This document shows positions 26,530-63,421 of a stretch of 64,000 nt of DNA, in pieces. Numbering within the stretch: the first letter of the stretch is position 1; each line of letters opens with the position of its first letter. The notes under the pieces are model-generated. The model did not search any database. It saw only the letters and a program-made list of their open reading frames with translations, and had not been told where the DNA came from. This stretch comes from Nannochloropsis oceanica. Lineage: Eukaryota; Sar; Eustigmatophyceae; Eustigmatales; Monodopsidaceae. The DNA is taken from the NCBI GenBank assembly GCA_004519485.1, contig CP038118.1, positions 660,872 through 724,871 of the forward strand. Reading direction: 5' to 3'. A program made the translations under genes and the position numbers.

Positions 26530-26532
26530 ATT

Positions 26533-29154: not shown

Positions 29155-29318
29155 TAAATGTCGCATAGCTTCCCACTCACACACTCATACACCATCTGAC
29201 ACCCATACCCACACCCATACACCCTCATCTCCAGCACAAAAAGGATAAACGAGGATTTAATCGGTTTCTCCTCTGCCTTGAATGCGGTCTCCATTTTAGA
29301 AGAATCTTTTTCCAACGA

Positions 29319-29561: not shown

Positions 29562-29564
29562 ATT

Positions 29565-35438: not shown

Positions 35439-38400
35439 TCACGGCACGGCCATTTCCAGCGATGGACATTCGCACAAAGGCAAGACATTTCCAAACCCAT
35501 CCCTCGGCTGCAGCACCAACCTGATCTTCCCTCCATCCCTCCCGCCTTCCCAAGAAGGCAGGACCAGACACAATGGAAAGACTGATGTCCAAACCCTCCC
35601 CAACCACAAAGGAGGAGGACAGAGGGCGCTAGCAAGGGTGGGGTGGAGAAACAAAAGGAACACCTCTGTGCTGTGCACGTCCTGGGGTCTCCGCCAATGC
35701 CAGACCAACTGACCACTTAAGGTCCGATTTCCCTCCTCCCATCCTGCCCCTCTCAAGCCCACGCTCCCAGCCTCCACCCAGGCCTCCTCCTTCCCTCCCT
35801 CACTCATATCTCGTTTAAAAGCAAGACGGTTGAGGCGGAGAAGGTTGGTCGGTCGCTGGAGGGGAGGGAGGGCAAGGGACCTGCGGAGAGAGGGCAGTCG
35901 CTCTTCCTTCCTCGCCGGCGCCCGTACGTGACCTATGCTGATCTCGCCTACGTAAAGCCTGTAAGGCCGAGGAGGACTGGGGAGAGGAGGAGGGGAGGAA
36001 AGGGGACGTTTGAGGCATACAAGGCGGACTTCTTGAATGGTTTCGCCTTCGAGTCGGAGGTCGCGCAAACGGAAGAGACGACGGCGCCACGGAACAGCAG
36101 CGAGGGCCTCTTCATCCTTCTCACCCTCCACCTCCTCGCCTGGCATCGAAGATAAGGGGAGGGTGGAGGAGAAAGTGCTGGCACTGGTATCCACAAGAGC
36201 GGTTTTCAACGGGGAGAAAAAAGCCGCTGCCAACCCCACCTCCATCTCTTTCTCCTCTTCCTCCACTACCAAATAATCGGCGACGGGAGCAAAAAAAATC
36301 TTACGACTATAGATGGCCTCGCTCCCTCTATCCGTTCCTTCTACTACCTTGCCCACCCGCCTTGATGCCCACCCACCCACCCTCCCTCCCTGTCCATCTC
36401 TCCCTTCCTGAACCATTTCACTAAGAATTATCCGTGTCTTCTTTCTCCTTGCTTCTGCTGCCAACATCTCATCCCGCAACGTTCCTGCTTGCGCCCTTCC
36501 ATCCTCCATCCAACCACTTTTCCCTCCCTCCCTCCCTCCCACCAGCACCAGCTCGATGGCAAATTCATCCTCGTCCTCCAGTAAGCGCTTGTAGACCACG
36601 CTCAATTCGAGCGTGAGCATCGACGTCGGCACTTCCATCTTAAACAGCGAAAACGACACCCCACCCTCCCTTCCGCCCTCCCTCCTGCTGCTATTGCTGC
36701 TACTGCTAGTTCTAGGATAAAGAGTACCCATGATACAAAGGGAGGAGCCGCCATGATACGCCGTGAGATAGGAGAAGTGTGCTTTAAGAAGGGAGGGAGG
36801 GAGGGAAGGCAGGCAGGTGGTTGCATCATCGGGGCCCTCATGCGGACTGCCCAGCTGGTGGTCGCCGCCAAGGGATGCAAGGAGAAAAGGAGGAGAAGAG
36901 GGAGGAGGGCCAGTGGCGACAGAGCAGTCCACCAGGGCCAACGGTAAGGGGTCTTGCATATTCAAGTTGAACCATGGCAGAGATTCCCCGTGACTTCCTC
37001 CCCTCCCTCCCTCCTTCATCGTGCCCAGGGCCGTGAAAGCCGGTCGCAGCGCCACCTTCCCTCCTGCTACCCACACCTTCCTACCCACTCCACTCCCAAA
37101 ATTCGTCAGGAACACACTGTGAGGTCCGCCCCTTTCATGCCCTCCCTCCCTCCCTGCCTCGAGCGAGCCTACAGGAAAAGGTCGCCGAGGAAAAACACGA
37201 CCGATTTTGGACCAAAATTCTTCCTGAGCTCTCTGGAAGACTTGTTCCACCCTTAGGAAGGTCCGGTGGTGGGAAGAAGAAGGAAGAGCTGGGGGAGGAA
37301 GATGAAGGCCAGCAGTAGCAGCTTTAACACAATCTTGCCTTTCCATGTCCTTGCTTTTCACCGACGCGCCATAAGCCTCCGTCTTCACCTCTCTCCTTTT
37401 CACCTCCTCTTCCAAAACCCAGCCCGGGGCAAAAAGCGCGGCAGACACGCCCGCCTTACGGGCCACCTTGAGGGCCACGTCACAGTCAAAGCCTCCCCCT
37501 CCATACGTGCCACGCCCGAAGCAATCCACCCCCATCCACACGTCCCTCCGCCGGCTCCTGACTCCCAGCCTCCCTGCCTCCTTTTTTCTTGTTGCTGTTG
37601 ATCCTCGGGCTGCTGTTGTTGCTGTTGCTGCTACTGCTGCTATCGCTGCTGCTGTGGTCATTGCTCCTGTTCTCCCTTCTTGTCCTTGCCCTCTACTGCT
37701 TTCCTCCTCCTCCTCCTCTTCCTCCTTCAAGCCCTCCTTCCATCCTCTTTTTACCCTTCCTTCAGGCGAAACACAGGAAGGCATCTCTGCCACAGCCTTA
37801 CCCAAGCGCGGCTTAGCGGAAGAGGAGGGAGAAGATGAGCAGGGGGATGAAGAAAAGAAGTTGGAGGAAGAAGAGGAGGAGGCTGAAGGGTTGGGGGAAG
37901 GTGGGAGAGTCTGTGCCGAAATTTTCGCCGTTGTTGACGGCGATAAGAAGGAAGAGGAAGGGGAGGGGGGGGAAGGCGGGAGGGGAAACGCATCGGCCAA
38001 GGCAGCACTCAACGCCGGCTCCTCTTCCTTCCAGCAGTAATTGGTGAATATTCCATCGCAAGCATTAAAAAACCTCTCGTTGCGTCTTGTCAATCCATTC
38101 TGCCATTCCAATTTGCCTGTATCACTCACCACTGAGTCATACCATAACACAATCCCTCCCTCCCTCCCTCCCTCCCCTTCTGCCTTCATCCCCTCCGTGA
38201 GCGCCTCCAAAAATACCAGCACATTTTCCACCCCTGCCTCTTTCCCAACCTCCAAGTCGTTCTCAATGTTCACAAGCCATCCATCGAAACCATAATGGCT
38301 GGCCATGTCCACCAGCTGCCGGGCCAGGGAGTGTGCTAGGGAGGGGGAGGCAAACAGCCGACGGCATGCCTCCTTCCCACCCGCCCACTCGGTGATGAAA

Positions 38401-39851
38401 GTGCCTAGACAGCGGACGCCTTGTCGATGGCAGAGCGAGATCCAGGAGGAGGGGGGGAAGGAGACCAGGTGGTGCGAGAAATAGACGAAAGTTTCGCAAA
38501 GGTCAAAGGCGTAGAGCCGAAAAGCGGGTGCGAAGGAGGGCGCGAGGGATGGAGGAGTGGAGGCAGCGGTGGCCAGAGCCGCCTCGTTCTCCAGGCCTTT
38601 GGCACCGCCCTCGTCCCCTCCCTCCTCTTTCCTTTCAAAGCTCTTTCCTCCTTCCTCTTCTTTCTCCATCTGCTCACAACCCACAGCCGCCACCGGGGCT
38701 TCGGCCTCCGACTCACCCCTCTCTCCCTCCTTCCTTCCGCCTTCTCCCCACGGACAACTCGGCCCAAAGCAGTGACGATCACCAAGGTATCCTCCCCCCA
38801 AGTCATGGCAAACCAACAAACCGCTCCCGTCCCTCCTGCCCTCCCTCCGACCTTCCCTTCCAACCCGCCTTCCCAGTCTTGAAACCAATGCACTCGCAGG
38901 GAGGGGTCCGGGGCTCAAGATGGCGGAGGTGGAGGAGGTGGAGGAGGAGAGGGGGGAGGAGGAGGAGGAGGAGGAGGAGGAGGATGAGGATGAGGATGAC
39001 GAGGAGAACGAGGGGTTTAAGGAGAAGGAGGACGAGGAGGAGAACGAGGGGTTTAAGGAGAAGGAGGACAACGAGGAGGACGAGGACGAGGAGGACGACG
39101 AGGAAGACGAGGAGAAGGGATGGGAGGAGGAAAAACAGGAGGATGGAAAAGAAGAGGAAAAGGAGGAGAGGGAGGAGGGGTGGGAGGAGGAGTAGGAGGA
39201 AGGAGTCTTTGAGAGAGGGAAAGTGTATAAGGAAGGGGGGAGGTACGTAAAATTGGGATTGCCTTTTTCGAACGTTCTCCATGCCCATATACCGTCGATG
39301 GTGTCAATGGGCTGCACTTCGGCAAAGCACGAAGGGGACAATGGGGGAAGATAAGGTGTGTGGAGAAGCACGGCGGTGGGTGGGGCGAGAAGATGTGCGG
39401 AGAAATGATAAGAGGAGGACGACGACGATGAGGGAAGGGCAAGAAGGTGGTGGTCGGGTAGAGGCTGGACTTTCCGGTCTTTAGTACTTGTGTTGTTTTT
39501 GTGATCACACGGTGCACCTTTTCCCTCCAATCTATCCAATTGCCAGACGGCATGCAAACGCTTTCTTTTCTCTGCCAATACGTGATGTAAAGCTGATGCG
39601 GCTGAACGGAGGCGCTTTTTCTTGCCCATGGTACGGCAGCGCGCGGATAGAAATAGGAACAATGCACCAAGAGCCATTACGAGGACAGACAAAAGGGATG
39701 TGAACGAAGAGTTGTGCTCGTCTGCCTGAAAAGTAGAGTGGGAAGAGGAAGTAGAGGCAAAAGGCAAAGGAGGAGAAGAGAAAGCTGCGCTGGAGGATAC
39801 CGAATTCAGGCCACCTTCCACTACGGGCTGCACTGCCGGCTTGACTGTCAT
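35439..39851 (-). CDS. Endo-beta-N-acetylglucosaminidase (GH85, ENGase) with N-terminal membrane anchor
   Basis: One uninterrupted frame; the first ATG is at 39,851, giving 1,470 aa. GH85 enzymes cut the chitobiose core of N-glycans, leaving one GlcNAc on the protein. Family motifs appear in order: LLVCHDLGGGYLGDR, FVYFSHHLVSFPP, GVRCLGTFITEW, FDGWLVNIEN (residues about 522-531, with the Asn-x-Glu catalytic pair at about 528 and 530), IVLWYDSVVSDTGKLEWQN, FFNACDGIFTNYCWKEE, DVWMGVDCFGRGTYGGGGFD, SAALFAPGW and TAYHGGSSL. Unlike typical cytosolic ENGases, it has a transmembrane segment at about 50-69 (LLSVLVMALGALFLFLSA). Poly-Ser and Gly/Arg/Glu low-complexity inserts roughly double the usual length. 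Neighbouring host genes have many introns, and this one has none. The frame stays open upstream of 39,851, so an extra 5' exon is possible. Confidence 0.93.
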   Translation of the reverse strand: MTVKPAVQPVVEGGLNSVSSSAAFSSPPLPFASTSSSHSTFQADEHNSSFTSLLSVLVMALGALFLFLSARCRTMGKKKRLRSAASALHHVLAEKRKRLHAVWQLDRLEGKGAPCDHKNNTSTKDRKVQPLPDHHLLALPSSSSSSSYHFSAHLLAPPTAVLLHTPYLPPLSPSCFAEVQPIDTIDGIWAWRTFEKGNPNFTYLPPSLYTFPLSKTPSSYSSSHPSSLSSFSSSFPSSCFSSSHPFSSSSSSSSSSSSSSLSSFSLNPSFSSSSSFSLNPSFSSSSSSSSSSSSSSSSSPLSSSTSSTSAILSPGPLPASALVSRLGRRVGREGRREGRRDGSGLLVCHDLGGGYLGDRHCFGPSCPWGEGGRKEGERGESEAEAPVAAVGCEQMEKEEEGGKSFERKEEGGDEGGAKGLENEAALATAASTPPSLAPSFAPAFRLYAFDLCETFVYFSHHLVSFPPSSWISLCHRQGVRCLGTFITEWAGGKEACRRLFASPSLAHSLARQLVDMASHYGFDGWLVNIENDLEVGKEAGVENVLVFLEALTEGMKAEGEGGREGGIVLWYDSVVSDTGKLEWQNGLTRRNERFFNACDGIFTNYCWKEEEPALSAALADAFPLPPSPPSPSSSFLSPSTTAKISAQTLPPSPNPSASSSSSSNFFSSSPCSSSPSSSAKPRLGKAVAEMPSCVSPEGRVKRGWKEGLKEEEEEEEESSRGQGQEGRTGAMTTAAAIAAVAATATTAARGSTATRKKEAGRLGVRSRRRDVWMGVDCFGRGTYGGGGFDCDVALKVARKAGVSAALFAPGWVLEEEVKRREVKTEAYGASVKSKDMERQDCVKAATAGLHLPPPALPSSSHHRTFLRVEQVFQRAQEEFWSKIGRVFPRRPFPVGSLEAGREGGHERGGPHSVFLTNFGSGVGRKVWVAGGKVALRPAFTALGTMKEGGRGGSHGESLPWFNLNMQDPLPLALVDCSVATGPPPSSPPFLLASLGGDHQLGSPHEGPDDATTCLPSLPPSLLKAHFSYLTAYHGGSSLCIMGTLYPRTSSSSNSSRREGGREGGVSFSLFKMEVPTSMLTLELSVVYKRLLEDEDEFAIELVLVGGREGGKSGWMEDGRAQAGTLRDEMLAAEARRKKTRIILSEMVQEGRDGQGGRVGGWASRRVGKVVEGTDRGSEAIYSRKIFFAPVADYLVVEEEEKEMEVGLAAAFFSPLKTALVDTSASTFSSTLPLSSMPGEEVEGEKDEEALAAVPWRRRLFRLRDLRLEGETIQEVRLVCLKRPLSSPPPLPSPPRPYRLYVGEISIGHVRAPARKEERLPSLRRSLALPPLQRPTNLLRLNRLAFKRDMSEGGKEEAWVEAGSVGLRGAGWEEGNRTLSGQLVWHWRRPQDVHSTEVFLLFLHPTLASALCPPPLWLGRVWTSVFPLCLVLPSWEGGRDGGKIRLVLQPRDGFGNVLPLCECPSLEMAVP

Positions 39852-40663
39852 TTCCACGGCTGCCTCAAAGTATGCCTGTTGTTACGGAGATGTGGTGAGG
39901 GAGGAAAGTAAGCAAAGTGGAAGAATTACCTGCGGCGAGACCAGCTTTTTTCGGGGGAGTAAGTGACCCCGTTTGCACCTCTACCGTATCTTCTCCTTCC
40001 CTGGCGATGACTGCAGAAGCTTTTGCTGCTATTGCTGTTGCTGGTATTGCTCCTGCTGCTGTTGGTGATATCCGCAGCATCGTCCACACTGCCTGGGGAT
40101 TCGAAATAGGGAGTTGAGGAGCGTTATCGGGTGACCCGCAAACGTCTAGCTTGCGCTTTGAGAAAATTATGATGATCCTCCCACGCAGACTAGACCAACT
40201 AGCTCTCATTAAAACCCACAAAAATGAAAAGAACAAATATCTTTCTGTCTAGTCCGTGTAATGCCCGATCCAAGTCTTGGCTCCTCTCTCACTTGGGTTG
40301 CCTGGTCGAACAACACCGCTGCTACCACTTTGAAAACGTCCTCAACCTCCCCTCAAGATCACGAAGAGCACCGTGCTGATCAGATCTGATCACGTCCGAC
40401 GACTTTGTTGGTTATTCGTCCGGTCATGTGATCGTGTACAAAGTACAGGCACTACTTCGTCACTACTTCGTCGGTGTGTGGATTTCAGGTACAAAGTACA
40501 GGCATGTACTCTGTCAGGGCATTGATTTCGTGACAAAGTAACGGCATCTACTCCGTCAGGACGAGATCGTGTACGAAGTAATGGCATTTACTCCATCAGA
40601 ACGAGGAATTCGTGTACGAAGTACAAGTACGAAGTACAGGCATATGTACCAAGTTCAGGCCTC
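39852..40663. other. ENGase upstream region and repeat-rich spacer
   Basis: The first 280 bases hold a GCT/TTG triplet stretch and the promoter side of the ENGase gene. A foldback-family end (TTAAAACCCACAAAAATG to CTGTCTAGTCCGTG) lies at about 40,205-40,258. From about 40,385 to 40,660 the words TACTTCGTC, TACAAAGTACAGGCA and CTCCGTCAG recur irregularly, a degenerate satellite-like stretch. No gene. Confidence 0.5.
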
Positions 40664-44631: not shown

Positions 44632-46386
44632 ATGCATGTCGAGTCATTACATCGAATGTGTGGACTGGAGAGGTCTTCTTTGGGAGTCAAAACACAGTAT
44701 CGCGGAGTGAGAGTAACTTTCGCCATTTTGTTCATGGCTTCGAGTAGCATCTACGTCGCCTTTGTGCACCATATGTTACGCACATTGGATTTGCAGCTGA
44801 GAAAGCATCCATTATTCCCTGGAGAATTTTCTTGGTATCATCTTGAAAGCTTGCCATTTCAACCGATAAATCATGCAGATACGATGCTACAACTGGCAGA
44901 CACCTCGTACGCGAGCCGCAATTACCAGAAAGCAGTGCTTCTATACCATGAAGCTCAGAAGGCGGCCATTAAAACCAACAACGACGAAAATTTGTACTAT
45001 AGTCTCTACAAATTGTCACAATGCCACATGACACTCAACAACACAAAAGCGGCTATTCATTACGCCCAGAGGGCTTTTGAGGTCCATCCCCAAGCCGAGC
45101 CCATGTTCCGTGTGGCCCAATATCTCGACGGTCAAGAGAAGGAGAAACAACAACTCAGTCGAGACTTTTATTATGCCGCCTGTCGCACATCTTCTAGCCA
45201 CCCGTCTAGTGCTTCGGAACGAAAATTTTCCGAAGAATTGCGCGTTATAGATAAATCAAGATTGTGGGCCCGACAATTCCCTCGAGAGTATTTGACCAAG
45301 CTTGCATCGCTTGAAGCTATTATGCACGATGAGGATGCGTCTATTGAGACTCATGAGCAGGTGCATTGGGAGATGATTGCAAGTACACGAGCAATTCTAG
45401 GTTGCTCACAAGAACTTTTTCGAAGAGAAGGTATATTTCACAACAGCAGCAGTTATTATTACGCAACACCATCTCTGATCCGTCGCCGAGAAGAGCACAG
45501 CGGCAGTGACAGCGCAAAGCAGGAAACTGATGCAGAGTATCTAATTTTGGTAAGGCTCCTCAACTACCGCATCGACCGCGAAGGTAGATGGTACAAAGAC
45601 TTTCTGCCTGCGAACCAAAATTCGGGCGTGTTGCGGAGTGCATCAGCTTTGTTTTTGAACACCACAGATAATGGTAGCATCCTTCGGGTACTCGATGGCC
45701 GTTATGAAAAATCTCTAACACGTTTCATGGGAACAGAGGATCCGAAGTTGCTGGCGATGATGGATGGCACGATTCGCATAATTTGGACAAGTTGGGAATA
45801 TGCCAAGGCTGCAGGGGGAGGATCCCGACTGGTTATGGGCACTTTGGATATAGATTCCCTAACGATTTACTTAGATCACGTGTTTCCCAGCCCCTTTGAT
45901 CACTTTAATGAGAAAAATTGGGTAGCCTTCCAGCGGCCGGGCTGCAATGACCTTTACTTTATCTACGAGTGGTATCCCTTGAGAATAGGAAGTCTGGACG
46001 TACAGAGCGGCACCATTCACTTTAACATAACGATTTCTACGCCTCGAAGCTTCCATCATCTCCGAGGCTCCTCTAACGGAGTCATCCACGACAACGATAT
46101 TTGGCTGATCACACACGGTACCACGTGGCATGAAGGTCCGGGCCCTATTTATTACCACCGTGTTGTGGTATTGGATTCAGAGACGTTCGAGGTCAAGCGC
46201 TATACGTACCCTTTTAAATTGGAATCCACCGAGGCCCCCATTGAATTTTCGCTTGGACTCGATATTGACCATCTGGGAAACGTGACGATTGCTTACAGCG
46301 TATTTGATGGATCCGCGGTATTGCGTCGCATTCCCATTTGGAAATTGGAGGCACTGATGGTGGTATCGCATGGAAAACTTATATGA
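44632..46386 (+). CDS. Type II membrane protein with TPR-like region and five-bladed beta-propeller glycan-active-like domain
   Basis: An intronless 584-aa frame. A single hydrophobic segment at about residues 27-48 (VTFAILFMASSSIYVAFVHH) after a basic N-terminus predicts a type II anchor, so the body would lie in the Golgi/ER lumen. Residues about 82-152 look like two TPR units (ADTSYASRNYQKAVLLYHEA, LSQCHMTLNNTKAAIHYAQR). Residues about 300-575 carry the propeller signs of the GH43/GH130-type superfamily: LVRLLNYRI, MGTEDPKLL (366-374, cf. R-G-x-E-D-P-R in GH130), EKNWVAFQRPG, HHLRGSSNGVI, DIWLITHGTTWHEGP and EFSLGLDID. GH130 proteins act on beta-mannosides. Whether this is a hydrolase, phosphorylase, transferase or lectin cannot be told, since the signature Arg is replaced by Met/Gly here. 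The start is chosen as the first ATG before the anchor. Confidence 0.8.
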   Translation: MHVESLHRMCGLERSSLGVKTQYRGVRVTFAILFMASSSIYVAFVHHMLRTLDLQLRKHPLFPGEFSWYHLESLPFQPINHADTMLQLADTSYASRNYQKAVLLYHEAQKAAIKTNNDENLYYSLYKLSQCHMTLNNTKAAIHYAQRAFEVHPQAEPMFRVAQYLDGQEKEKQQLSRDFYYAACRTSSSHPSSASERKFSEELRVIDKSRLWARQFPREYLTKLASLEAIMHDEDASIETHEQVHWEMIASTRAILGCSQELFRREGIFHNSSSYYYATPSLIRRREEHSGSDSAKQETDAEYLILVRLLNYRIDREGRWYKDFLPANQNSGVLRSASALFLNTTDNGSILRVLDGRYEKSLTRFMGTEDPKLLAMMDGTIRIIWTSWEYAKAAGGGSRLVMGTLDIDSLTIYLDHVFPSPFDHFNEKNWVAFQRPGCNDLYFIYEWYPLRIGSLDVQSGTIHFNITISTPRSFHHLRGSSNGVIHDNDIWLITHGTTWHEGPGPIYYHRVVVLDSETFEVKRYTYPFKLESTEAPIEFSLGLDIDHLGNVTIAYSVFDGSAVLRRIPIWKLEALMVVSHGKLI

Positions 46387-47741: not shown

Positions 47742-49378
47742 TCAAACCTTGGCCTGATAAATATACCGGTGGTCTCGTGATTTCACTACAAATCGAAATG
47801 AGGAGAAGTATTGCTTCAACAACATTTCGAAATTGATTCGCGTATAAGAGAAGGAGGGATCGACGTGCCCAAAGGTTTGGATGGCGTCATCTAAAGGGTC
47901 GATCCATTCGACCAGCAACGTGGAGCGTGTAAGCTTTCTTAAGAAATACACCACATCAGCTAAATTTCCGAACGATTGTGAGCAGGACATAAGCCAGTGT
48001 ACGATGGCAAAGGCCATGACGATGTCAGCCTCTTGGATATTTAGGAAAGAGCTATACTTCAGGTCCAGCGAGAGAAAGTCAGCGACCATCTGTCCAGCTG
48101 AGATAGCGTAGATATCTTGTTCAATAATTACACTCGACAAAGAGCCGTGTTGGAGAGCCCAAAGACTGTAAAATCCGGAGTTTCCACCCATGTCCGTCAA
48201 TCGCGTACCGTTTAAATCGATACCATCAAACGCTCGAAGTCTTAGATCCAAATAATCGTTTGTCGATGTCACGTAGCTATTTTTGCATGCTTTGAATACC
48301 TGATAGCCGGTTACCTGTAGGCACTCTTCCTCTTGACCAACTGTGGTGTTCATAACATGTGCATTGGCATTATAGCACGGTGCGACGGTATCCGATACTT
48401 TGCCATACTGATAGAGTATAGCCCTTAATCTTGCGAAATCACGAATCCTATCAATGCATTTGTCTCTCGTAATGTGGTACACAATATTATGTATCCCTTT
48501 GGGAACATTACCGCGCCGCTTGACAAGTGCTTGTCTTAACATGACGCCAGCAGAAAAGAGATCATCAAATCCGCAAAGATCAACGTCAGGCGGCTTATGA
48601 CGCCCCAAATTCATTACTGTCTGCCCTTCTGCTGGGACGACCGGCGACGTCGCTAATGCAAAGTCTAAGACTTTCACTGATTCCAGATTGTCAACGAGGA
48701 CATTTCTTGTATCGATATCCCTATGAGTAATACCCATCTCATTCATCCTCTCTAACGCTGATAGCAATGAATCAACAATACTGTAAATCTGTGTTGCATT
48801 GGATTTTATTATTGCATCCTCAAAAGGCTCGCCTTTTAAGAAGGGGATTGCGGTTGCATATCTTTTGGCTCCATCAATCCAAACTGTGGACGACATTAAG
48901 CACCGGGGAAAGTGATGAGTTTCAGGCATCTTGGCCTCAATATAATTGAGCACGATGCATTCAGTCCGCCCTATCTCATATTGAGTATGCGGAAACAGAG
49001 CATCTGAAATCTTTAAGATGATATTCTGTCGACGGAATACCTTGCTCTTGTTTTGATCAGTCAACAGTTGCCATCCGGAGAAATCCTTTGCTGTCAAATT
49101 ATATTTATTACCCATTTGGAGTAACAACATATGATCCCAAGTATATGATGGGGGGGACGCCAAGGTGGGTACCTGTGAAACCCAAAGGCTTATCAATAGA
49201 CTGCAAAAGCGATTATTTTTGTGAATCTAGAAAATAAAACTATGACGGGTCGTTTGTTTGAACATGTATTTCTCACCTTGTAATAAGGATCAGCAGCATG
49301 AAGGCAGGCTTGCTCATATTCGCGTGCCTTTTCGTCATTCCACCACCCTGTCTTAGGAGTTGAAGACAGACGAAACAT
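47742..49378 (-). CDS. Protein-kinase-like domain fused to SAM-dependent methyltransferase
   Basis: Two exons, 49378-49277 and 49172-47742, join in phase (donor AAG/GTGAGA, acceptor TTTCACAG) to 510 aa. Residues about 60-300 are kinase-like: NIILKIS (Lys 88 in the VAIK position), HRDIDTRNVLVD (Asp 186, Asn 191) and VLDFA (Asp 204; Ala replaces the Gly of DFG). LCGFDDLFSAGVMLRQAL fits the F-helix DxxSxG region. After a Cys-containing linker, residues about 345-505 are a Rossmann methyltransferase: LTDMGGNSGFYSLWAL (motif I), SVIIEQD (strand 2 acid), ADIVMAFAIVHWL (motif IV region) and TLLVEWID. All kinase catalytic residues needed for phosphotransfer seem present. Bacterial WbdD, which phosphorylates and methylates the end of O-antigen mannans, combines the same activities in the opposite domain order; the comparison is by analogy only. 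The start is the first ATG of exon 1; an extra upstream exon is possible. Confidence 0.82.
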
Positions 49379-52342: not shown

Positions 52343-52881
52343 CCACACGTTGGACGACATTACTGCCAAAATGGCCCGTACGACTAATTGTTACGGTAAT
52401 CGTCAACAGTCGTCGATAATCATGTGATAAGTCATAGTCGTGCATGATTCCCATCGAGGACGACTAAAAGTCATCGTAGTCGTGCATGATTTTTATCAAG
52501 CGACGACTAGTAGTCGTCGCAGTCATGCATGCATAAAAATCATCAATCGACGACTATTCAGTCATCGCATTCGTCCATATTTTCATCGACCTACGACAAC
52601 ATACAACGTGTTGGTAGGCGTCACAACGCCCATGACGACTGTGAATTGCCGTTGTCCAGTGGCTAAGTGGATCAAAAGTTGGACGAATACTCTGTGAAGA
52701 TGATCTGTAGAACTAGCTTAAGTAATGGTCGTCAAAAGTCGTCGATCGATGGTCATGTGATAAGTCGTAGTCGTGCATAATTGACATTGACAGCGACTGT
52801 GACGACCTTAAGTCGTGCATAATCGAAGGACAGGACGACTTATGATTGGCTAGATAATACTGGTAGTCGTCCGCCGTGTGG
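52343..52881. mobile_element. GTCGT-rich terminal-inverted-repeat element
   Basis: Left end CCACACGTTGGACGAC, right end GTCGTCCGCCGTGTGG. The body is packed with CGACTA/TAGTCG words, often as AGTCGTGCATGATT. It is a complete copy of the family at 31,898 and has no coding capacity. Confidence 0.8.
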
Positions 52882-53097
52882 TATGCACCCAATCTGGCAC
52901 CCAACGGTCTGAACTTCGACTGTTGGTAGGAATCCCCCATGTAAAAAGCTTGCATTACATATCTCTCGAGAGCTGGATCTGGCCACAGACAGGGAATAGA
53001 TCAAGCTGATGGTGCACACAACAGATGAAAGACACGTCTGTCTTTTCTCTTTTAAGCCTTGTTTCCCTCCCTTTCACTCTTTTTCCTTGATTAAAAA

Positions 53098-53643
53098 TCA
53101 ATTAAGGAAGTGTCCCTTGTACTCTCGGATGTTCTTCCTTGCCCGCATGAAACCAAGAAAGTTCTTGATTTGATTGCTCAGCCCGTCAACCTTCGCACTC
53201 GAGTCGTGGACGACTACCAATATTACGTCGTCAGTCATTAACCGTCTCGTCCTGCGATTGTTCACGACTAGTAGTCGTCGTAGTAGTCCACTCCTGCGAT
53301 GTGCGGATCGAGTATATGTTGTGACATGTAGGGGAGAAGAAGGCGGGGCGGCAGCAGGATAAGAGTGGCGTTGATGGCAGATGGGGAGGACGAGGAGGGG
53401 GGGAAGGAGGTTGAGATGAAGATGATAAGAGTTGATAGCGAAGAAAGAAAGCAGTAAGAGGAAAAAAGAGAGAAGAACGAGTATGGGGAAAAGAGAGGGA
53501 GAAAACGGCATGTGCCTGAAAGAATGGGAAAAAGATTTTATGCTAACACCGCAAGTAAGAATATAGTTCAAATCCGCTATATCGTTGTATACTTCGTTTC
53601 TTGGGCCATTTATCCGCCGCATACTTCCATTCTCCCGGCACAA
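53098..53643 (-). CDS. Hypothetical 181-aa frame, unit 1 (doubtful)
   Basis: An open frame with one strongly hydrophobic segment (FPILVLLSFFLLLLSFFAI) and a C-terminal part translated from GTCGT-type sequence (VVVHDSSAKVDGL). It persists in unit 2 with few changes, but the units are nearly identical, so that is not evidence of selection. It may be the downstream part of the secreted-protein transcript or chance. Confidence 0.2.
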   Translation of the reverse strand: MCRENGSMRRINGPRNEVYNDIADLNYILTCGVSIKSFSHSFRHMPFSPSLFPILVLLSFFLLLLSFFAINSYHLHLNLLPPLLVLPICHQRHSYPAAAPPSSPLHVTTYTRSAHRRSGLLRRLLVVNNRRTRRLMTDDVILVVVHDSSAKVDGLSNQIKNFLGFMRARKNIREYKGHFLN

Positions 53644-54030
53644 CGCTCACGCCCCCACAGAGACGTTGATCTACCATAGCGATCTTCTTCCAAACACACA
53701 CCCCAGACCTAGTTCCACACAACACAAAATACATACCGCAGGTACCTGTGGTACCTCGAGTTCACGACGACGGACAGTGGCCCTTCACATAAAGTAGTGC
53801 TCTCCATCTACCAGGCAAGCCAATAACAGGACGCAGCCTGTTATGATTTACTGGACTGACAAGACACAGAAAACAGACACAAACCACAGAAACACGGGCA
53901 TAGACATACCCTCAAAACACCGTGATATCCTTACACGAAAAAGCATGCTAGTCTTCCGGGGAATGGAGTGCAGGAAGAAACGAAGTCTTCTCCCACAAAC
54001 CCCGACATAGAACTGTCATGCCTATGGCCC

Positions 54031-55638
54031 TTAAAGCATGCTGGAATCGAGGTACTTCTTCGCGTAATTAACTTCCAGCTGGGTGTTCCATACCTGGCTT
54101 TCAGTCTCGAACGTGTTCTCAGGATTAGCTGCGTCATCGGGAGAAAAAATCAGAATCGTATCCAGCTCCACCGACGCCACCTTGGAGGCGGGGTACTTCT
54201 CAAAGCGGCCGCTTCCACCATAGATCTTACTGAACGTCGTGTCAATCGTGTTAGGCCGGGCAACGCACGTGACAGTGTCGATCACCTGGTAAGCGAAGAG
54301 CTCTACAACGTCAACAAATGCGAACGATACTGAAAATCCTCCACCTGTGCCTGCAGTTTTAGTCGTCCAAACACCGCCCATTCCATATTGAGTGATGGAT
54401 GTGTAGGTGCCGCCAGCTTCAGGGAAAGAATGTTGGAAAATAAGGGAGGAAGGGAGGAGAGGTTAATGAGAATCCCGATTATGGTGCAAGACGTAGGGTT
54501 AATGGATTAAAATTAAGGTAACACACTTTCCACATGCATCAAATGCATCGAATCTGTACCCTTCCCCCAACACGCAGCATGCACGCATTCATATGAATCG
54601 CCACAACAACGTACCGGGGACTAAAGTCGTGTTGGTCGTGAAGTCGAAAGATAAGATGCTCCCTGGATGCTTATTCTTGCGGTTATCGCCGCTAAGGCGG
54701 AGCTCGGCGGAGCACTTGGAACTGAAAGGCGCAAACTTGGTTCCTTGTTGATCCACGCAGAATTGATCCACAGATGCCTGCACCTGTGCAGTAGTGGTAG
54801 TTTCACCAATTTCAAGGGGAGTCCAGTCTTGGACGAAATTTCCTTGATTAGGCGGAGTTGGGTTGTAGTTGGTGCCAGGCGATCTAATGTCATCCAGAAG
54901 TGCAGCACGTCCCACTGCTTGGCGAGTGAGGGTGAAGGTCACGCCCTCGTACGGGTTGTTTGAGCATGTGGCGCTCAAGGAGCCGATTTCCTCGGTCATG
55001 TCGTCTACCTGATAATTGCGTATTGTCCAGTGATGATTGTGAGTTGTGAGTGTTAGTTGTACGGTATGTACTGAGGTGAGCATTGAGGGCCAGGCACCTT
55101 TCTATCCGGCCGAATAACAATAATTCACAGGAAAAAATGCTTCGATTACCCTTGCCTACCTCAGCACAATCCCCAGGGTAGACGGGGTACGAAAATGCGC
55201 CCGTACCAGCGACACCTGTCCCGCCAATGTAGGCATCGTACTCCTGGGTGCAGAGATTGAAGCCAGTCACCTTGCGCAGATTCGTCTTATCGTTGTGAGC
55301 GCCTTTCGGGTGTTTGTTGCCCGTCTTGTTCTTGTTCGCGGTCAGGGCCTCGAACTGGGCATCTGTTGGGATGAATGCATGCATGGTTGGTGAGGTTGTG
55401 ATGGATTGTCCTAGTTCATAGGGTGGGGGATGATTCCGGCCAAGTTTAGTGTCTGTCGACCTGCTTCTGCCTGTCCCATAAATATAAAGCGAAAGAAACA
55501 GGAAATAATCAGCAGCTCTGGACGACACAATGTGGCCTCCCGTGTCTTTCCAAACAACTCCCTTAAAGTGTCATCCATCTCTTACTTACCTGCCATACAG
55601 AGGAGGGCCACAAAGAGGAGGGCAGATTGGCGAAACAT
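54031..55638 (-). CDS. Secreted protein of unknown function, unit 1
   Basis: Four exons, 55638-55590, 55362-55160, 55008-54615 and 54416-54031, join in phase with GT-AG junctions to 343 aa. Exon 1 is a signal peptide (MFRQSALLFVALLCMAG), with probable cleavage around residue 18. The mature part has scattered cysteines (FNLCTQEYD, PGDCAE, ATCSNN, DQFCVDQQ, SSKCSAEL, TVTCVARP), several Asn-x-Thr/Ser sites and Gly-rich beta-type stretches (YIGGTGVAGTGAFSYP, YGMGGVWTTKTAGTGGGF). No transmembrane segment follows the signal, so it is likely secreted or cell-wall associated. I do not recognise the fold. The placement of the introns between well-composed exons makes the gene convincing. The full copy at 59,301 encodes the same protein. 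Confidence 0.85.
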
Positions 55639-56000
55639 GGTAGCTTGGCAGTGAAGTCAAAAAAAGGCTGTGCACATTATGAGAAAGGGGTGTAAAAGAA
55701 TAGAGAAATAATATCTCTGGTGAGCTTTTGTCTGTTACTTTCGGCTGCAGGACAGTGTGTTATCGCTGGTGATGCCCCATCTGTCGGCGTCTCGAGGCAT
55801 ACCCAGGAGGATGGGGCGATCTGTGCGCTGCGGTTTAGAGGAAAAAGATACGACCCATGGGCACCAACGCACCACAGGGGCTGACTTAGGCATTGTTGGG
55901 TTTGAAAGAGTGGTGTTTGTGTACGTGTGTATGGCCCCTGCCTGGGGCGGTAGAGAGTTGAGGGCAGTTTGATTCAAGGGCGTTCTTTTCTTGTCTCTCG

Positions 56001-56010
56001 CCCTATATAA
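56001..56010 (-). promoter_or_regulatory. Possible TATA box of the secreted-protein gene, unit 1
   Basis: On the minus strand the sequence reads TTATATAGGG, about 365 bp upstream of the start codon at 55,638. It would imply a leader of over 300 bases or a leader intron, so the assignment is tentative. Confidence 0.3.
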
Positions 56011-56130
56011 CCATTGAGAGGAGTGGGGACAGGTGCTGTTCCATGGGCCTCGGCTCTATGCAGCACTATTGCCACACACCTAGAAAACTCTGGCCTAACG
56101 CAACACCTTGCCATAGGACGGACAATACAG

Positions 56131-56618
56131 CACTCAATGGACGACTATTCTGCAATAATGGCCTACACGACTAATTGTTGAGATAGTCGTCAATAGTCGT
56201 CTATAGTCATGTGATTGGTCGTAGTCGTGCATGATTCCCATCGAGAACGACTAAAAGTCGTCGTAGTCGTGCATGATTTTCATCGAGTGACGACTATTCA
56301 GTCATCACATAAGTCCATATTTTCATCGACCTACGACAACATACAACGTGTAGGTAGGCGTCACAATGACCACGACCACTGTAAATTGTCGTTGTCCAGC
56401 GATTTTAAAGAGGATCAAAAGTTGGACGACTACTCTGTAAAGATAGCCTGTACGACTGACTATTATATTAGTCGTCAAAATTCGTCGTAGTCATGTAATT
56501 AGTCGTAGTCGTGCGCGATTTCCATTGAGGACGACTACGACGACTATAAGTCGTGCATAATCGAAGGACAGGACGACTAATGATCGACTAGATTATACCG
56601 GTAGTCGTCCAACGTGTG
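56131..56618. mobile_element. GTCGT-rich terminal-inverted-repeat element
   Basis: Shorter variant of the family: left end CAATGGACGAC, right end GTCGTCCAACGTGTG. It is followed immediately by a foldback-type end (ATACAGAAAGTTATGTACGT), so two families are joined here. Confidence 0.75.
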
Positions 56619-56947
56619 CCATACAGAAAGTTATGTACGTTGTTTGAACCAGGTGAAACATATGGAAGAAGGAGATGAGGAAGGATGCCCCCTTACCTGA
56701 CACACACAGAAAAGGGATTAGAGGAGTCCCTAATGCGGCACTGCAGACCAGAGAAAAGAGCGTCGCATGAGTGGCCTAACGCATTTTAGAGGGCTGAATG
56801 CCATACAGGCAGTGCATGCAGACAAAGGACTATGTGGTGTACAAACACAGAAATCAAAGAGAAATAGTTGCGCACAAGAAGAAAATAGGGAAACAAAAAA
56901 CCTCACAAACTGAAAGATAAATTCTTGGAAGAAACAGGAAAAAAACG

Positions 56948-57165
56948 ATCTGTTTTATTGTTGTTTTTGGTTTTTTGGTTTTTGGGTGTTTTTGCTTTCT
57001 GGTTCAAAAACTAAAAACCAGACTGTCGTTGTTCCTCATTTTTTTTCTGGTTTTTGATTTTTGGTTTTTGGTTTTTCATCTAAGGCTTCTGGCTTCTGGC
57101 CTTTGGCCTTTGCTTTTTGGTTTTTTGTTTTTAGTTTTTGGTTTGTGTGTTTTTTTTTTTCCGGG
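56948..57165 (+). repeat. T/G-rich GGTTTTT tract, unit 1
   Basis: About 220 bases of GGTTTTT/TTTTTGG words with a CTTCTGGC/CTTTGGCC middle. The frames through it are Phe/Leu/Trp-rich and not genes. Confidence 0.85.
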
Positions 57166-57616
57166 GAGGGGGGGACTCGGTTGATATCACACATTCGACA
57201 ACTACCAATACTACGTAGTAGTCAGTCATTAATCGTCCCGTCCTGCGATTGTGCATGATAGAAAGTCCTCATGTTTGAGCGAGACTTTCTGGTACTACTA
57301 TTTTCTCAGACCTAGGATACAGCCTGACCGCCGAGGTCCAGCATGGCTTATCGCGTTCGGTATCCACTGAAGAGGAATAATGTTGTATAATTATTTCTGA
57401 ATTTAGCAGCGCATTGAGGTGGGGTGGTATTTCAATCAGCCGGTGACTCTCTTCCCCACACTTGCCTGCGAGAGAATGAAAAGAAGTCTCTCCTCTCTGC
57501 TATCGGTACTCGATACATGCATGGTGTGGGAAATCTATGCCAATCGCCATACTCGTTTGATGGGAAGCAACAAGATTTCCCAACAGTTTTAGCCGTGCAC
57601 TCCTATTTTGTATGCA

Positions 57617-58151
57617 CCACACGTTGGACGACATTTCTGCCAAAATGGCCCGTACGACTTATTGTTACGGTAATCGTCAACAGTCGTCGATAATCATGTG
57701 ATAAGTCATAGTCGTGCATGATTCCCATCGAGGACGACTAAAAGTCATCGTAGTCGTGCATGATTTTTATCAAGCGACGACTAGTAGTCGTCGCAGTCAT
57801 GCATAAAAATCATCAAGCGACGACTATTCAGTCATCGCATTCGTCCATATTTTCATCGACCTACGACAACATACAACGTGTTGGTAGGCGTCACAACGAC
57901 CACGACCACTGTAAATTGCCGTTGTCCAGTGGCTAAGTGGATCAAAAGTTGGACGAATACTCTGTGAAGATGATCTGTAGAACTAGCTTAAGTAATGGTC
58001 GTCAAAAGTCGTCGATCGATGGTCATGTGATAAGTCGTAGTCATGCATAATTGACATTGACAGCGACTGTGACGACTATAAGTCGTGCATAATCGAAGGA
58101 CAGGACGACTTATGATTGGCTAGATAATACTGGTAGTCGTCCGCCGTGTGG
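57617..58151. mobile_element. GTCGT-rich terminal-inverted-repeat element, unit 2
   Basis: Copy of 52,343-52,881 in unit 2, four bases shorter, with the same terminal inverted repeats. Confidence 0.8.
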
Positions 58152-58367
58152 TATGCACCCAATCTGGCACCCAACGGTCTGAACTTCGACTGTTGGTAGG
58201 AATCCCCCATGTAAAAAGCTTGCATTACATATCTCTCGAGAGCTGGATCTGGCCACAGACAGGGAATAGATCAAGCTGATGGTGCACACAACAGATGAAA
58301 GACACGTCTGTCTTTTCTCTTTTAAGCCTTGTTTCCCTCCCTTTCACTCTTTTTCCTTGATTAAAAA

Positions 58368-58913
58368 TCAATTAAGGAAGTGTCCCTTGTACTCTCGGAT
58401 GTTCTTCCTTGCCCGCATGAAACCAAGAAAGTTCTTGATTTGATTGCTTAGCCCGTCAACCTTCGCACTCGAGTCGTGGACGACTACCAATATTACGTCG
58501 TCAGTCATTAACCGTCTCGTCCTGCGATTGTGCACGACTAGTAGTCGTCGTAGTAGTCCACTCCTGCGATGTGCGGATCGAGTATATGTTGTGACATGTA
58601 GGGGAGAAGAAGGCGGGGCGGCAGCAGGATAAGAGTGGCGTTGATGGCAGATGGGGAGGACGAGGAGGGGGGGAAGGAGGTTGAGATGAAGATGATAAGA
58701 GTTGATAGCGAAGAAAGAAAGCAGTAAGAGGAAAAAAGAGAGAAGAACGAGTATGGGGAAAAGAGAGGGAGAAAACGGCATGTGCCTGAAAGAATGGGAA
58801 AAAGATTTTATGCTAACACCGCAAGTAAGAATATAGTTCAAATCCGCTATATCGTTGTATACTTCGTTTCTTGGGCCATTTATCCGCCGCATACTTCCAT
58901 TCTCCCGGCACAA
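58368..58913 (-). CDS. Hypothetical 181-aa frame, unit 2 (doubtful)
   Basis: Copy of the frame at 53,098 with one amino-acid difference. The same doubts apply. Confidence 0.2.
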   Translation of the reverse strand: MCRENGSMRRINGPRNEVYNDIADLNYILTCGVSIKSFSHSFRHMPFSPSLFPILVLLSFFLLLLSFFAINSYHLHLNLLPPLLVLPICHQRHSYPAAAPPSSPLHVTTYTRSAHRRSGLLRRLLVVHNRRTRRLMTDDVILVVVHDSSAKVDGLSNQIKNFLGFMRARKNIREYKGHFLN

Positions 58914-59300
58914 CGCTCACGCCCCCACAGAGACGTTGATCTACCATAGCGATCTTCTTCCAAACACACACCCCAGACCTAGTTCCACACAACACAAAAT
59001 ACATACCGCAGGTACCTGTGGTACCTCGAGTTCACGACGACGGACAGTGGCCCTTCACATAAAGTAGTGCTCTCCATCTACCAGGCAAGCCAATAACAGG
59101 ACGCAGCCTGTTATGATTTACTGGACTGACAAGACACAGAAAACAGACACAAACCACAGAAACACGGGCATAGACATACCCTCAAAACACCGTGATATCC
59201 TTACACGAAAAAGCATGCTAGTCTTCCGGGGAATGGAGTGCAGGAAGAAACGAAGTCTTCTCCCACAAACCCCGACATAGAACTGTCATGCCTATGGCCC

Positions 59301-60908
59301 TTAAAGCATGCTGGAATCGAGGTACTTCTTCGCGTAATTAACTTCCAGCTGGGTGTTCCATACCTGGCTTTCAGTCTCGAACGTGTTCTCAGGATTAGCT
59401 GCGTCATCGGGAGAAAAAATCAGAATCGTATCCAGCTCCACCGACGCCACCTTGGAGGCGGGGTACTTCTCAAAGCGGCCGCTTCCACCATAGATCTTAC
59501 TGAACGTCGTGTCAATCGTGTTAGGCCGGGCAACGCACGTGACAGTGTCGATCACCTGGTAAGCGAAGAGCTCTACAACGTCAACAAATGCGAACGATAC
59601 TGAAAATCCTCCACCTGTGCCTGCAGTTTTAGTCGTCCAAACACCGCCCATTCCATATTGAGTGATGGATGTGTAGGTGCCGCCAGCTTCAGGGAAAGAA
59701 TGTTGGAAAATAAGGGAGGAAGGGAGGAGAGGTTAATGAGAATCCCGATTATGGTGCAAGACGTAGGGTTAATGGATTAAAATTAAGGTAACACACTTTC
59801 CACATGCATCAAATGCATCGAATCTGTACCCTTCCCCCAACACGCAGCATGCACGCATTCATATGAATCGCCACAACAACGTACCGGGGACTAAAGTCGT
59901 GTTGGTCGTGAAGTCGAAAGATAAGATGCTCCCTGGATGCTTATTCTTGCGGTTATCGCCGCTAAGGCGGAGCTCGGCGGAGCACTTGGAACTGAAAGGC
60001 GCAAACTTGGTTCCTTGTTGATCCACGCAGAATTGATCCACAGATGCCTGCACCTGTGCAGTAGTGGTAGTTTCACCAATTTCAAGGGGAGTCCAGTCTT
60101 GGACGAAATTTCCTTGATTAGGCGGAGTTGGGTTGTAGTTGGTGCCAGGCGATCTAATGTCATCCAGAAGTGCAGCACGTCCCACTGCTTGGCGAGTGAG
60201 GGTGAAGGTCACGCCCTCGTACGGGTTGTTTGAGCATGTGGCGCTCAAGGAGCCGATTTCCTCGGTCATGTCGTCTACCTGATAATTGCGTATTGTCCAG
60301 TGATGATTGTGAGTTGTGAGTGTTAGTTGTACGGTATGTACTGAGGTGAGCATTGAGGGCCAGGCACCTTTCTATCCGGCCGAATAACAATAATTCACAG
60401 GAAAAAATGCTTCGATTACCCTTGCCTACCTCAGCACAATCCCCAGGGTAGACGGGGTACGAAAATGCGCCCGTACCAGCGACACCTGTCCCGCCAATGT
60501 AGGCATCGTACTCCTGGGTGCAGAGATTGAAGCCAGTCACCTTGCGCAGATTCGTCTTATCGTTGTGAGCGCCTTTCGGGTGTTTGTTGCCCGTCTTGTT
60601 CTTGTTCGCGGTCAGGGCCTCGAACTGGGCATCTGTTGGGATGAATGCATGCATGGTTGGTGAGGTTGTGATGGATTGTCCTAGTTCATAGGGTGGGGGA
60701 TGATTCCGGCCAAGTTTAGTGTCTGTCGACCTGCTTCTGCCTGTCCCATAAATATAAAGCGAAAGAAACAGGAAATAATCAGCAGCTCTGGACGACACAA
60801 TGTGGCCTCCCGTGTCTTTCCAAACAACTCCCTTAAAGTGTCATCCATCTCTTACTTACCTGCCATACAGAGGAGGGCCACAAAGAGGAGGGCAGATTGG
60901 CGAAACAT
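59301..60908 (-). CDS. Secreted protein of unknown function, unit 2
   Basis: Exons 60908-60860, 60632-60430, 60278-59885 and 59686-59301 give the same 343-aa protein as at 54,031, with no difference seen. A third copy would lie beyond the right edge of the window. Confidence 0.85.
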
Positions 60909-61270
60909 GGTAGCTTGGCAGTGAAGTCAAAAAAAGGCTGTGCACATTATGAGAAAGGGGTGTAAAAGAATAGAGAAATAATATCTCTGGTGAGCTTTTG
61001 TCTGTTACTTTCGGCTGCAGGACAGTGTGTTATCGCTGGTGATGCCCCATCTGTCGGCGTCTCGAGGCATACCCAGGAGGATGGGGCGATCTGTGCGCTG
61101 CGGTTTAGAGGAAAAAGATACGACCCATGGGCACCAACGCACCACAGGGGCTGACTTAGGCATTGTTGGGTTTGAAAGAGTGGTGTTTGTGTACGTGTGT
61201 ATGGCCCCTGCCTGGGGCGGTAGAGAGTTGAGGGCAGTTTGATTCAAGGGCGTTCTTTTCTTGTCTCTCG

Positions 61271-61280
61271 CCCTATATAA
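61271..61280 (-). promoter_or_regulatory. Possible TATA box of the secreted-protein gene, unit 2
   Basis: Same TTATATAGGG motif as at 56,001, duplicated with the unit. Confidence 0.3.
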
Positions 61281-61400
61281 CCATTGAGAGGAGTGGGGAC
61301 AGGTGCTGTTCCATGGGCCTCGGCTCTATGCAGCACTATTGCCACACACCTAGAAAACTCTGGCCTAACGCAACACCTTGCCATAGGACGGACAATACAG

Positions 61401-61888
61401 CACTCAATGGACGACTATTCTGCAATAATGGCCTACACGACTAATTGTTGAGATAGTCGTCAATAGTCGTCTATAGTCATGTGATTGGTCGTAGTCGTGC
61501 ATGATTCCCATCGAGAACGACTAAAAGTCGTCGTAGTCGTGCATGATTTTCATCGAGTGACGACTATTCAGTCATCACATAAGTCCATATTTTCATCGAC
61601 CTACGACAACATACAACGTGTAGGTAGGCGTCACAATGACCACGACCACTGTAAATTGTCGTTGTCCAGCGATTTTAAAGAGGATCAAAAGTTGGACGAC
61701 TACTCTGTAAAGATAGCCTGTACGACTGACTATTATATTAGTCGTCAAAATTCGTCGTAGTCATGTAATTAGTCGTAGTCGTGCGCGATTTCCATTGAGG
61801 ACGACTACGACGACTATAAGTCGTGCATAATCGAAGGACAGGACGACTAATGATCGACTAGATTATACCGGTAGTCGTCCAACGTGTG
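61401..61888. mobile_element. GTCGT-rich terminal-inverted-repeat element, unit 2
   Basis: Copy of 56,131-56,618 shifted by one unit, including the adjoining foldback-type end. Confidence 0.75.
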
Positions 61889-62217
61889 CCATACAGAAAG
61901 TTATGTACGTTGTTTGAACCAGGTGAAACATATGGAAGAAGGAGATGAGGAAGGATGCCCCCTTACCTGACACACACAGAAAAGGGATTAGAGGAGTCCC
62001 TAATGCGGCACTGCAGACCAGAGAAAAGAGCGTCGCATGAGTGGCCTAACGCATTTTAGAGGGCTGAATGCCATACAGGCAGTGCATGCAGACAAAGGAC
62101 TATGTGGTGTACAAACACAGAAATCAAAGAGAAATAGTTGCGCACAAGAAGAAAATAGGGAAACAAAAAACCTCACAAACTGAAAGATAAATTCTTGGAA
62201 GAAACAGGAAAAAAACG

Positions 62218-62435
62218 ATCTGTTTTATTGTTGTTTTTGGTTTTTTGGTTTTTGGGTGTTTTTGCTTTCTGGTTCAAAAACTAAAAACCAGACTGTCGTT
62301 GTTCCTCATTTTTTTTCTGGTTTTTGATTTTTGGTTTTTGGTTTTTCATCTAAGGCTTCTGGCTTCTGGCCTTTGGCCTTTGCTTTTTGGTTTTTTGTTT
62401 TTAGTTTTTGGTTTGTGTGTTTTTTTTTTTCCGGG
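62218..62435 (+). repeat. T/G-rich GGTTTTT tract, unit 2
   Basis: Copy of the tract at 56,948. Confidence 0.85.
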
Positions 62436-62886
62436 GAGGGGGGGACTCGGTTGATATCACACATTCGACAACTACCAATACTACGTAGTAGTCAGTCATT
62501 AATCGTCCCGTCCTGCGATTGTGCATGATAGAAAGTCCTCATGTTTGAGCGAGACTTTCTGGTACTACTATTTTCTCAGACCTAGGATACAGCCTGACCG
62601 CCGAGGTCCAGCATGGCTTATCGCGTTCGGTATCCACTGAAGAGGAATAATGTTGTATAATTATTTCTGAATTTAGCAGCGCATTGAGGTGGGGTGGTAT
62701 TTCAATCAGCCGGTGACTCTCTTCCCCACACTTGCCTGCGAGAGAATGAAAAGAAGTCTCTCCTCTCTGCTATCGGTACTCGATACATGCATGGTGTGGG
62801 AAATCTATGCCAATCGCCATACTCGTTTGATGGGAAGCAACAAGATTTCCCAACAGTTTTAGCCGTGCACTCCTATTTTGTATGCA

Positions 62887-63421
62887 CCACACGTTGGACG
62901 ACATTTCTGCCAAAATGGCCCGTACGACTTATTGTTACGGTAATCGTCAACAGTCGTCGATAATCATGTGATAAGTCATAGTCGTGCATGATTCCCATCG
63001 AGGACGACTAAAAGTCATCGTAGTCGTGCATGATTTTTATCAAGCGACGACTAGTAGTCGTCGCAGTCATGCATAAAAATCATCAAGCGACGACTATTCA
63101 GTCATCGCATTCGTCCATATTTTCATCGACCTACGACAACATACAACGTGTTGGTAGGCGTCACAACGACCACGACCACTGTAAATTGCCGTTGTCCAGT
63201 GGCTAAGTGGATCAAAAGTTGGACGAATACTCTGTGAAGATGATCTGTAGAACTAGCTTAAGTAATGGTCGTCAAAAGTCGTCGATCGATGGTCATGTGA
63301 TAAGTCGTAGTCATGCATAATTGACATTGACAGCGACTGTGACGACTATAAGTCGTGCATAATCGAAGGACAGGACGACTTATGATTGGCTAGATAATAC
63401 TGGTAGTCGTCCGCCGTGTGG
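62887..63421. mobile_element. GTCGT-rich terminal-inverted-repeat element, unit 3
   Basis: Copy of 57,617-58,151 in the partial third unit. Confidence 0.8.

Follow-up and report, generated by a model that had tools for sequence, protein, structure and literature searches.

The question raised by this locus is whether a single algal gene joins a kinase to a methyltransferase and, if so, whether the two act together on a glycan. The window, a stretch of 64,000 nucleotides of contig CP038118.1 of Nannochloropsis oceanica, carries the gene on its minus strand at 47742..49378. An earlier note on this DNA described a 510-aa protein with a kinase followed by a methyltransferase and proposed, by analogy with bacterial WbdD, that it caps glycans with a methylated phosphate. 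The splice model of that note (ATG at 49378, a first exon ending at 49277 and a second beginning at 49172) was reproduced exactly, and the two domains and their order proved correct; the 510-aa product, however, is one of several splice models, and its choice of splice site conceals a probable membrane anchor. The gene has the following features, in window coordinates:

49277..49338, minus strand: exon 1 of the preferred model, starting with the Met codon at 49338 (a further in-frame ATG lies at 49419), encoding a basic N-terminus and the first half of a hydrophobic anchor (19-residue hydropathy maximum 2.21) and ending at donor AAG/GTGAGA
49201..49276, minus strand: intron of the preferred model (GTGAGA...TTTTGCAG), extending to 49173 in the earlier model
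49277..49378, minus strand: exon 1 of the earlier, alternative model, giving a soluble 510-aa protein with exon 2 from 49172; one of 22 single-intron models
47742..49200, minus strand: exon 2, encoding the end of the anchor, the kinase domain, the methyltransferase domain and the stop; open for 485 codons
48363..49085, minus strand: kinase domain, with approximate bounds at residues 60 and 300 in 506-aa numbering, placed by a Pfam Pkinase match above cut-off and by motif positions
48702-48725, minus strand: catalytic loop HRDIDTRN, placed by motif position
47745..48311, minus strand: class I SAM methyltransferase domain, roughly from residue 318 to residue 506, with motif I DMGGNSG from residue 357 and Tyr320, Arg341, His422 and Arg499, placed by NCBIfam, a viral profile, AlphaFold/Foldseek and alignment

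The kinase-methyltransferase fusion is real and resides in one algal gene: both domains are demonstrably encoded within a single uninterrupted exon of 485 open codons. At the base composition of exon 2 a stop is expected at 5.7% of codons, which gives a chance of about 4e-13 of meeting no stop, and 2000 shuffles of the exon yielded at most 180 open codons against the 485 observed. We found no point in favour of reading the locus as two genes run together or as a frame open by chance, and the length of the exon across both domains makes such an artefact extremely improbable. The gene is present in a single copy in its own genome (29.26 Mb, 32 contigs searched), which holds one further weak match, to the kinase part; the methyltransferase half matched only itself at E<=10.

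How the protein begins depends on splicing. No intron-less model stays open into the core of the protein, and 22 single-intron models that do so were listed. For the strong donor AAG/GTGAGA, two acceptors matter most. Use of the first acceptor (TTTTGCAG, 49200) with the other frame of exon 1 yields a 506-aa protein beginning MTKRHANMSKPAFMLLILITSLLISLWVSQ..., with a basic tail followed by one strong hydrophobic segment; both are absent from the earlier model, in which the second acceptor (TTTCACAG, 49172) suits the exon 1 frame of that model and produces a soluble start. From the AT-rich region around the gene, with its coding stretches, 3335 stop-free windows of 38 codons were sampled; 95 of them reached a 19-residue hydropathy of at least 2.2, and 13 did so with a basic start of net +2. 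The probability that an anchor-like start arose by chance is small but not negligible, as several models were considered. Position −3 is G at the start codon of the anchored model and T at that of the earlier one. We consider the anchored, first-acceptor model probably the better of the two, and the 506-aa product is, subject to that splice site, a probable type II membrane protein. An anchor of this type would place both domains in the lumen of the ER or Golgi. The competing splice choice would instead deliver a soluble protein kinase-methyltransferase of the cytosol or nucleus, with a protein or a small molecule as its substrate. Its 510-aa model is open and bounded by GT-AG splice sites, and the lumenal sequons of the anchored protein (five against 2.7 expected, a count reached by 12% of shuffles) are not significantly enriched; the strong anchor and basic start obtained from the first acceptor argue against it.

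The kinase domain bears on the same choice. It scores 33.5 bits against Pfam Pkinase in the whole protein (cut-off 31.7) and 35 bits when the kinase half is used alone. The general Pkinase model is its best family match, and the APH and Kdo kinase profiles fall below their own cut-offs, which favours the soluble enzyme. The HRD and DF(A) motifs with Lys, Asp, Asn and Asp in place, as first described, are all present, and the set of five usual catalytic residues is demonstrably complete with a glutamate: Lys84, Glu101, Asp182, Asn187 and Asp200 in the numbering of the 506-aa model, where HRD is His180-Arg-Asp182 and the DFG position reads Asp200-Phe-Ala. No glycine-rich loop was found, the nucleotide loop LLTDQNKSKVF containing no glycine. 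Ser/Thr kinases usually have a lysine at the position occupied by aspartate in the HRDIDTRN loop. Both of these features speak against a soluble protein kinase, an interpretation that we regard as rather doubtful. The structural check proposed for this half did not confirm a kinase fold: in the 476-aa model the AlphaFold blocks across residues 31-270 have pLDDT values of 22-56, a low confidence. Prediction from the single sequence, with no alignment, gave a mean pLDDT of 34 and no fold.

The second half is demonstrably a class I methyltransferase with a SAM-binding motif. The Rossmann methyltransferase and motif I of the original description were both recovered: DMGGNSG is present, an acid is kept at the ribose-binding position, and a Rossmann-like fold that matches methyltransferase folds was modelled. 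Pfam returned no match to this half at E<=10, and two NCBIfam methyltransferase models matched at E 3e-4 (20.3 bits against a cut-off of 300) and E 1.1e-3 (18.5 against 171), both well short of their curated cut-offs. A profile of viral methyltransferases, based on 24 non-redundant sequences drawn from the 29 of 30 open reading frames (ORFs) that were long enough, scored the algal domain at 31.6 bits, compared with 10.7 for the best of 20,000 shuffles. This match indicates class I membership and not a close family, since 35 ORFs of the fetched loci outscore the algal domain (a profile member, L136, described below; five WbdD copies; and 29 others).

For AlphaFold, an alignment of 14 rows (A2) was supplied, and the mean pLDDT was 52.7 overall. 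The methyltransferase part was modelled at a confidence ranging from fair to high: between residue 311 and the end of the 476-aa model, 16 ten-residue blocks lay at 62-93, ten of them at 81-93, with a dip to 36 at residues 431-440. Nearly all of the best 50 of 1959 Foldseek matches bear methyltransferase names; MePCE, the methylphosphate capping enzyme, ranks 12th, no WbdD structure appears among these 50, and the best match among viral models is the methyltransferase of Virus NIOZ-UU159 (22% identity). The fold result is support and not independent proof, because the remaining rows of A2 contain methyltransferases themselves and prediction from the sequence alone yielded no fold. Membership of the FkbM family, considered on account of the GGNxGF motif, was rejected. 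The viral proteins retrieved with that pattern are FkbM-like, and by eye the algal domain is without their later motifs; tblastn matched it to just two of these proteins, over a short stretch at motif I (25 residues, E 0.011), and a phmmer search with the algal domain returned none of their ORFs at E<=10.

Searches for relatives, proposed as a check of the fusion, gave a divided answer: no close relative emerged from the viral, phage, plasmid or species sets, but viral fusions with the kinase first were found. Three metagenomic viral proteins from IMG/VR are single chains that combine a glycosyltransferase with a kinase and a methyltransferase, the kinase preceding the methyltransferase:

L136, 584-3055, minus strand: triple fusion of 824 aa; all three domains pass their Pfam cut-offs
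L176, 1238-3496, plus strand: triple fusion; glycosyltransferase, methyltransferase and APH pass, Pkinase is missed (28.4 against 31.7)
L177, 2177-4420, minus strand: triple fusion; glycosyltransferase, methyltransferase and Pkinase pass their cut-offs

A scan of the viral contigs with the kinase catalytic pattern gave 53 loci, and a methyltransferase-motif scan gave 28 loci (L136 included) with 30 ORFs. Only these three among the 30 have the kinase pattern, in each case upstream of the methyltransferase; the other 27 are without it. Three further viral ORFs, L164:5555-6814 (minus strand), L167:8021-9205 (plus strand) and L179:2672-3991 (minus strand), share this methyltransferase motif, which follows a region that resembles a kinase by eye but is without the catalytic pattern. 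L176 adjoins virion structural and tail genes, which marks it as a phage gene; three neighbours of L177 have no PHROGs match. The three triple fusions resemble the algal protein in the order of kinase and methyltransferase, in an upstream Tyr-Gln and Arg, and in an Arg near the C-terminus. They differ in having an N-terminal glycosyltransferase, which Pfam did not find in the algal protein, where the alga has its probable membrane anchor, and their identity to it in A2 is 16-19%. When the algal protein was compared by phmmer with 2307 ORFs of the viral loci, L136 alone among the best 60 matches had positive scores in both halves, but weak ones (13.9 and 6.9 bits), and many plain kinases score higher overall.

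The viral ORFs also touch on whether the algal protein is degenerate or regulatory, with one domain inactive. Degeneracy would fit the 27 of 30 related viral ORFs without a kinase pattern, some of which look by eye like degenerate kinases, as well as the glycine-free nucleotide loop, DFA in place of DFG, and a Trp at the second His position of the methyltransferase (see below). Retention of the Lys, the Glu, the catalytic Asp, the Asn and the metal-binding Asp in the kinase, and of motif I and the ribose-position acid in the methyltransferase, makes loss of a domain's activity improbable.

Close relatives of the algal protein were found neither in viral contigs nor in species genomes or phages. 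Phages gave one weak match to the kinase part (E 4e-3) and, in another search, two matches (E 2 and 9). Plasmids gave 42 records at E<=1, but 80% coverage was not reached in any of them; the best 20 of the 42 lie in the kinase part, some starting before it or entering the linker. The same 398 Pseudomonadota genomes were used throughout, with at most a few candidates scored per genome, so absence from them is weak evidence. The algal protein was matched in 78 of them (E<=1e-4), and among the matches listed none covers both domains and one lies in the methyltransferase. The methyltransferase alone was matched in 43 (E<=0.01), and in 23 of these 43 the matched ORFs have 294-304 residues and are presumably ribosomal L11 methyltransferases. 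The kinase-methyltransferase part of L136 was matched in 26 (E<=1e-7), with none of the matches listed spanning both domains. In the viral contigs this part of L136 found only itself. Among the 59 phage and 490 plasmid records that it matched, none of the best 30 of each is a fused relative or reaches 80% coverage. Viral contigs returned nothing for the exact catalytic-loop pattern or for a WbdD alignment search. Literature searches found nothing on this gene among the matches listed for Nannochloropsis glycans, and nothing on phage glycosyltransferase, kinase and methyltransferase fusions.

The parallel with WbdD stands insofar as that enzyme, too, has both activities in one chain, with its domains in the opposite order; it is not the sole parallel, and by sequence comparison the algal protein has no special kinship with it. 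A search of the algal genome with WbdD from an Escherichia coli plasmid ranked this gene 14th of 15 matches, all of them in the kinase part of WbdD. Compared with two WbdD proteins alone, the algal kinase part gives an ungapped alignment of 61 residues with 30% identity, and hhalign of the single sequences against WbdD gave nothing.

An alignment of 27 methyltransferase sequences (the algal protein, two WbdD and the 24 viral proteins) places WbdD Tyr16, Arg36, His132 and Arg203 against identical residues Tyr320, Arg341, His422 and Arg499 of the alga. His133 is replaced by Trp, Arg31 by Asp and Asp82 by Glu. According to the WbdD mutagenesis report, H132A, H133A, R203A and Y16F each singly abolish methylation and leave phosphorylation intact (PMC3482155). 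Three of these four residues essential for phosphate methylation are thus identical in the alga, the exception being the Trp at His133. Among the 24 viral rows, Tyr16 is kept in 20, Arg36 in 19, Arg203 in 18, His133 in 19 and His132 in 6, and Arg31 and Asp82 in 18 and 23; the alga is without His133, the His that these proteins usually keep. As Tyr16, Arg36 and Arg203 are common in these rows, the shared Tyr and Arg set may be the signature of a broader subfamily and not of specificity for phosphate.

These residues bear on whether the methyl group goes to a phosphate or to a hydroxyl. The enzyme could be a glycan enzyme with two separate reactions, its kinase phosphorylating one sugar and its methyltransferase O-methylating a sugar hydroxyl. 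O-methylated N-glycans are reported in several microalgae, green and red, and a 2020 review states that to its authors' knowledge no microalgal glycan-methylation enzyme has been characterised (PMC7773692); the change of His133 to Trp likewise weakens the argument for a phosphate site. On the other side, the Arg, one His and the Tyr of the WbdD phosphate site align in the alga, and the WbdD report states that the O8 hydroxyl methyltransferase does not have counterparts of Arg203 or of either His (PMC3482155). We judge hydroxyl methylation unlikely. Phosphate-methyl capping, the idea put forward at the outset, is still the best mechanism, with three of the four phosphate-methylation residues aligned, but it has against it the Trp at His133 and the absence of WbdD kinship.

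The genomic setting provides part of the glycan context that had been claimed for the gene. A GH85 glycosidase ORF (window 35439-39881, minus strand, 1480 codons, Pfam E 2.3e-76) lies about 8 kb away, but the nearer 584-aa protein at 44632-46386 (plus strand) has only sub-threshold TPR matches and the protein at 50497 has no Pfam match. The 584-aa protein has an N-terminal hydrophobic segment, a C-terminal part without Pfam match, six sequons against 2.8 expected (5% of shuffles) and a GTEDPKL motif of the kind seen in GH130-like enzymes. The gene sits in an AT-rich island (about 45-48% GC) that runs from about 18 kb in the window to at least 20 kb beyond it, beside DNA of 52-63% GC, and that is broken by the GH85 ORF (57% GC); the window ends 89 kb short of the end of the 814-kb contig. 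Exon 2 has 43.8% GC, compared with 50.7-58.5% at the ten loci of the same genome matched by the WbdD kinase part. Such a setting fits acquired or fast-changing DNA and proves neither. The window also contains a 3032-bp unit (21903-31298), in register at four places and 96% identical to its first copy in a 300-base sample, with the same 276-codon ORF, without Pfam match, in three copies (23498, 26530 and 29562). A 5270-bp unit (52528-63367) is in register at three places (97%, 300-base sample) and carries near-identical ORF pairs at 53098/58368, 54589/59859 and 54890/60160. A chlorophyll-binding protein encoded in the window fits a photosynthetic alga.

The data presented above have led us to propose, tentatively, that the protein works in the secretory pathway, where it would put a phosphate on a terminal sugar and then methylate that phosphate. 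The algal protein would cross the ER or Golgi membrane once, in type II orientation. Its lumenal kinase domain would move phosphate from ATP onto the terminal sugar of a glycan, and the methyltransferase domain would then methylate the sugar phosphate from SAM, leaving a methylphosphate cap. We infer the substrate and activity: a glycan as acceptor, phosphate rather than hydroxyl as the site of methylation, mannose as the sugar and the coupling of the two steps. The link to glycans is drawn from the three viral proteins with kinase before methyltransferase, each of which has a glycosyltransferase domain as well. A secretory enzyme that acts as glycan kinase and phosphate methyltransferase is favoured by these fusions, by the pairing of the two activities in WbdD and in Klebsiella pneumoniae O7 ORF6, and by the occurrence of methylphosphomannose in a eukaryote, Dictyostelium. 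More doubtful is the fuller proposal of a eukaryotic, Golgi-anchored glycan methylphosphate transferase that would combine sugar phosphorylation and phosphate methylation in one chain by a route distinct from the Dictyostelium GlcNAc-phosphotransferase, lie in an AT-rich island and be built like a phage glycosyltransferase-fused module.

Bacterial O antigens and slime-mould N-glycans are already known to carry methylphosphate on their sugars, and an algal gene with two candidate activities in one chain would make eukaryotic glycan methylphosphorylation testable in an alga. Membrane-anchored kinases that act on sugars in the ER and Golgi lumen are represented in animals by POMK and FAM20B, which differ from the algal protein in having no methyltransferase domain. 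The 2025 Dictyostelium N-glycome paper describes methylphosphate on terminal mannose, made via the GlcNAc-1-phosphate intermediate of gpt1 (PMC11795075). The word methyltransferase is absent from its main text. WbdD, the chain terminator of the E. coli O9a and K. pneumoniae O3 O antigens, is a single-chain methyltransferase-kinase that caps its glycan with methylphosphate (PMC3482155). It resembles the algal protein in joining a eukaryotic-like kinase to a class I methyltransferase, but it is a bacterial enzyme working at the cytoplasmic membrane, with methyltransferase, kinase and coiled coil in that order; the algal order is reversed, and the algal chain ends at the methyltransferase. O7 ORF6, a single-chain methyltransferase-kinase-glycosyltransferase that makes a methylphosphate glycan end, likewise has both domains in one chain and differs in being bacterial, with the methyltransferase first, an amicoumacin-kinase-like kinase, a coiled coil and glycosyltransferase modules (PMC11231755). 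The kinases of WbdD and O7 ORF6, the two characterised single-chain methyltransferase-kinases in the literature consulted, are unlike each other (PMC3482155, PMC11231755), and that both enzymes nevertheless cap with methylphosphate argues for the pairing of kinase and methyltransferase itself as a pointer to this chemistry. If the proposal is true, that pairing, seen with unlike kinases in the two bacterial enzymes, extends to eukaryotes.
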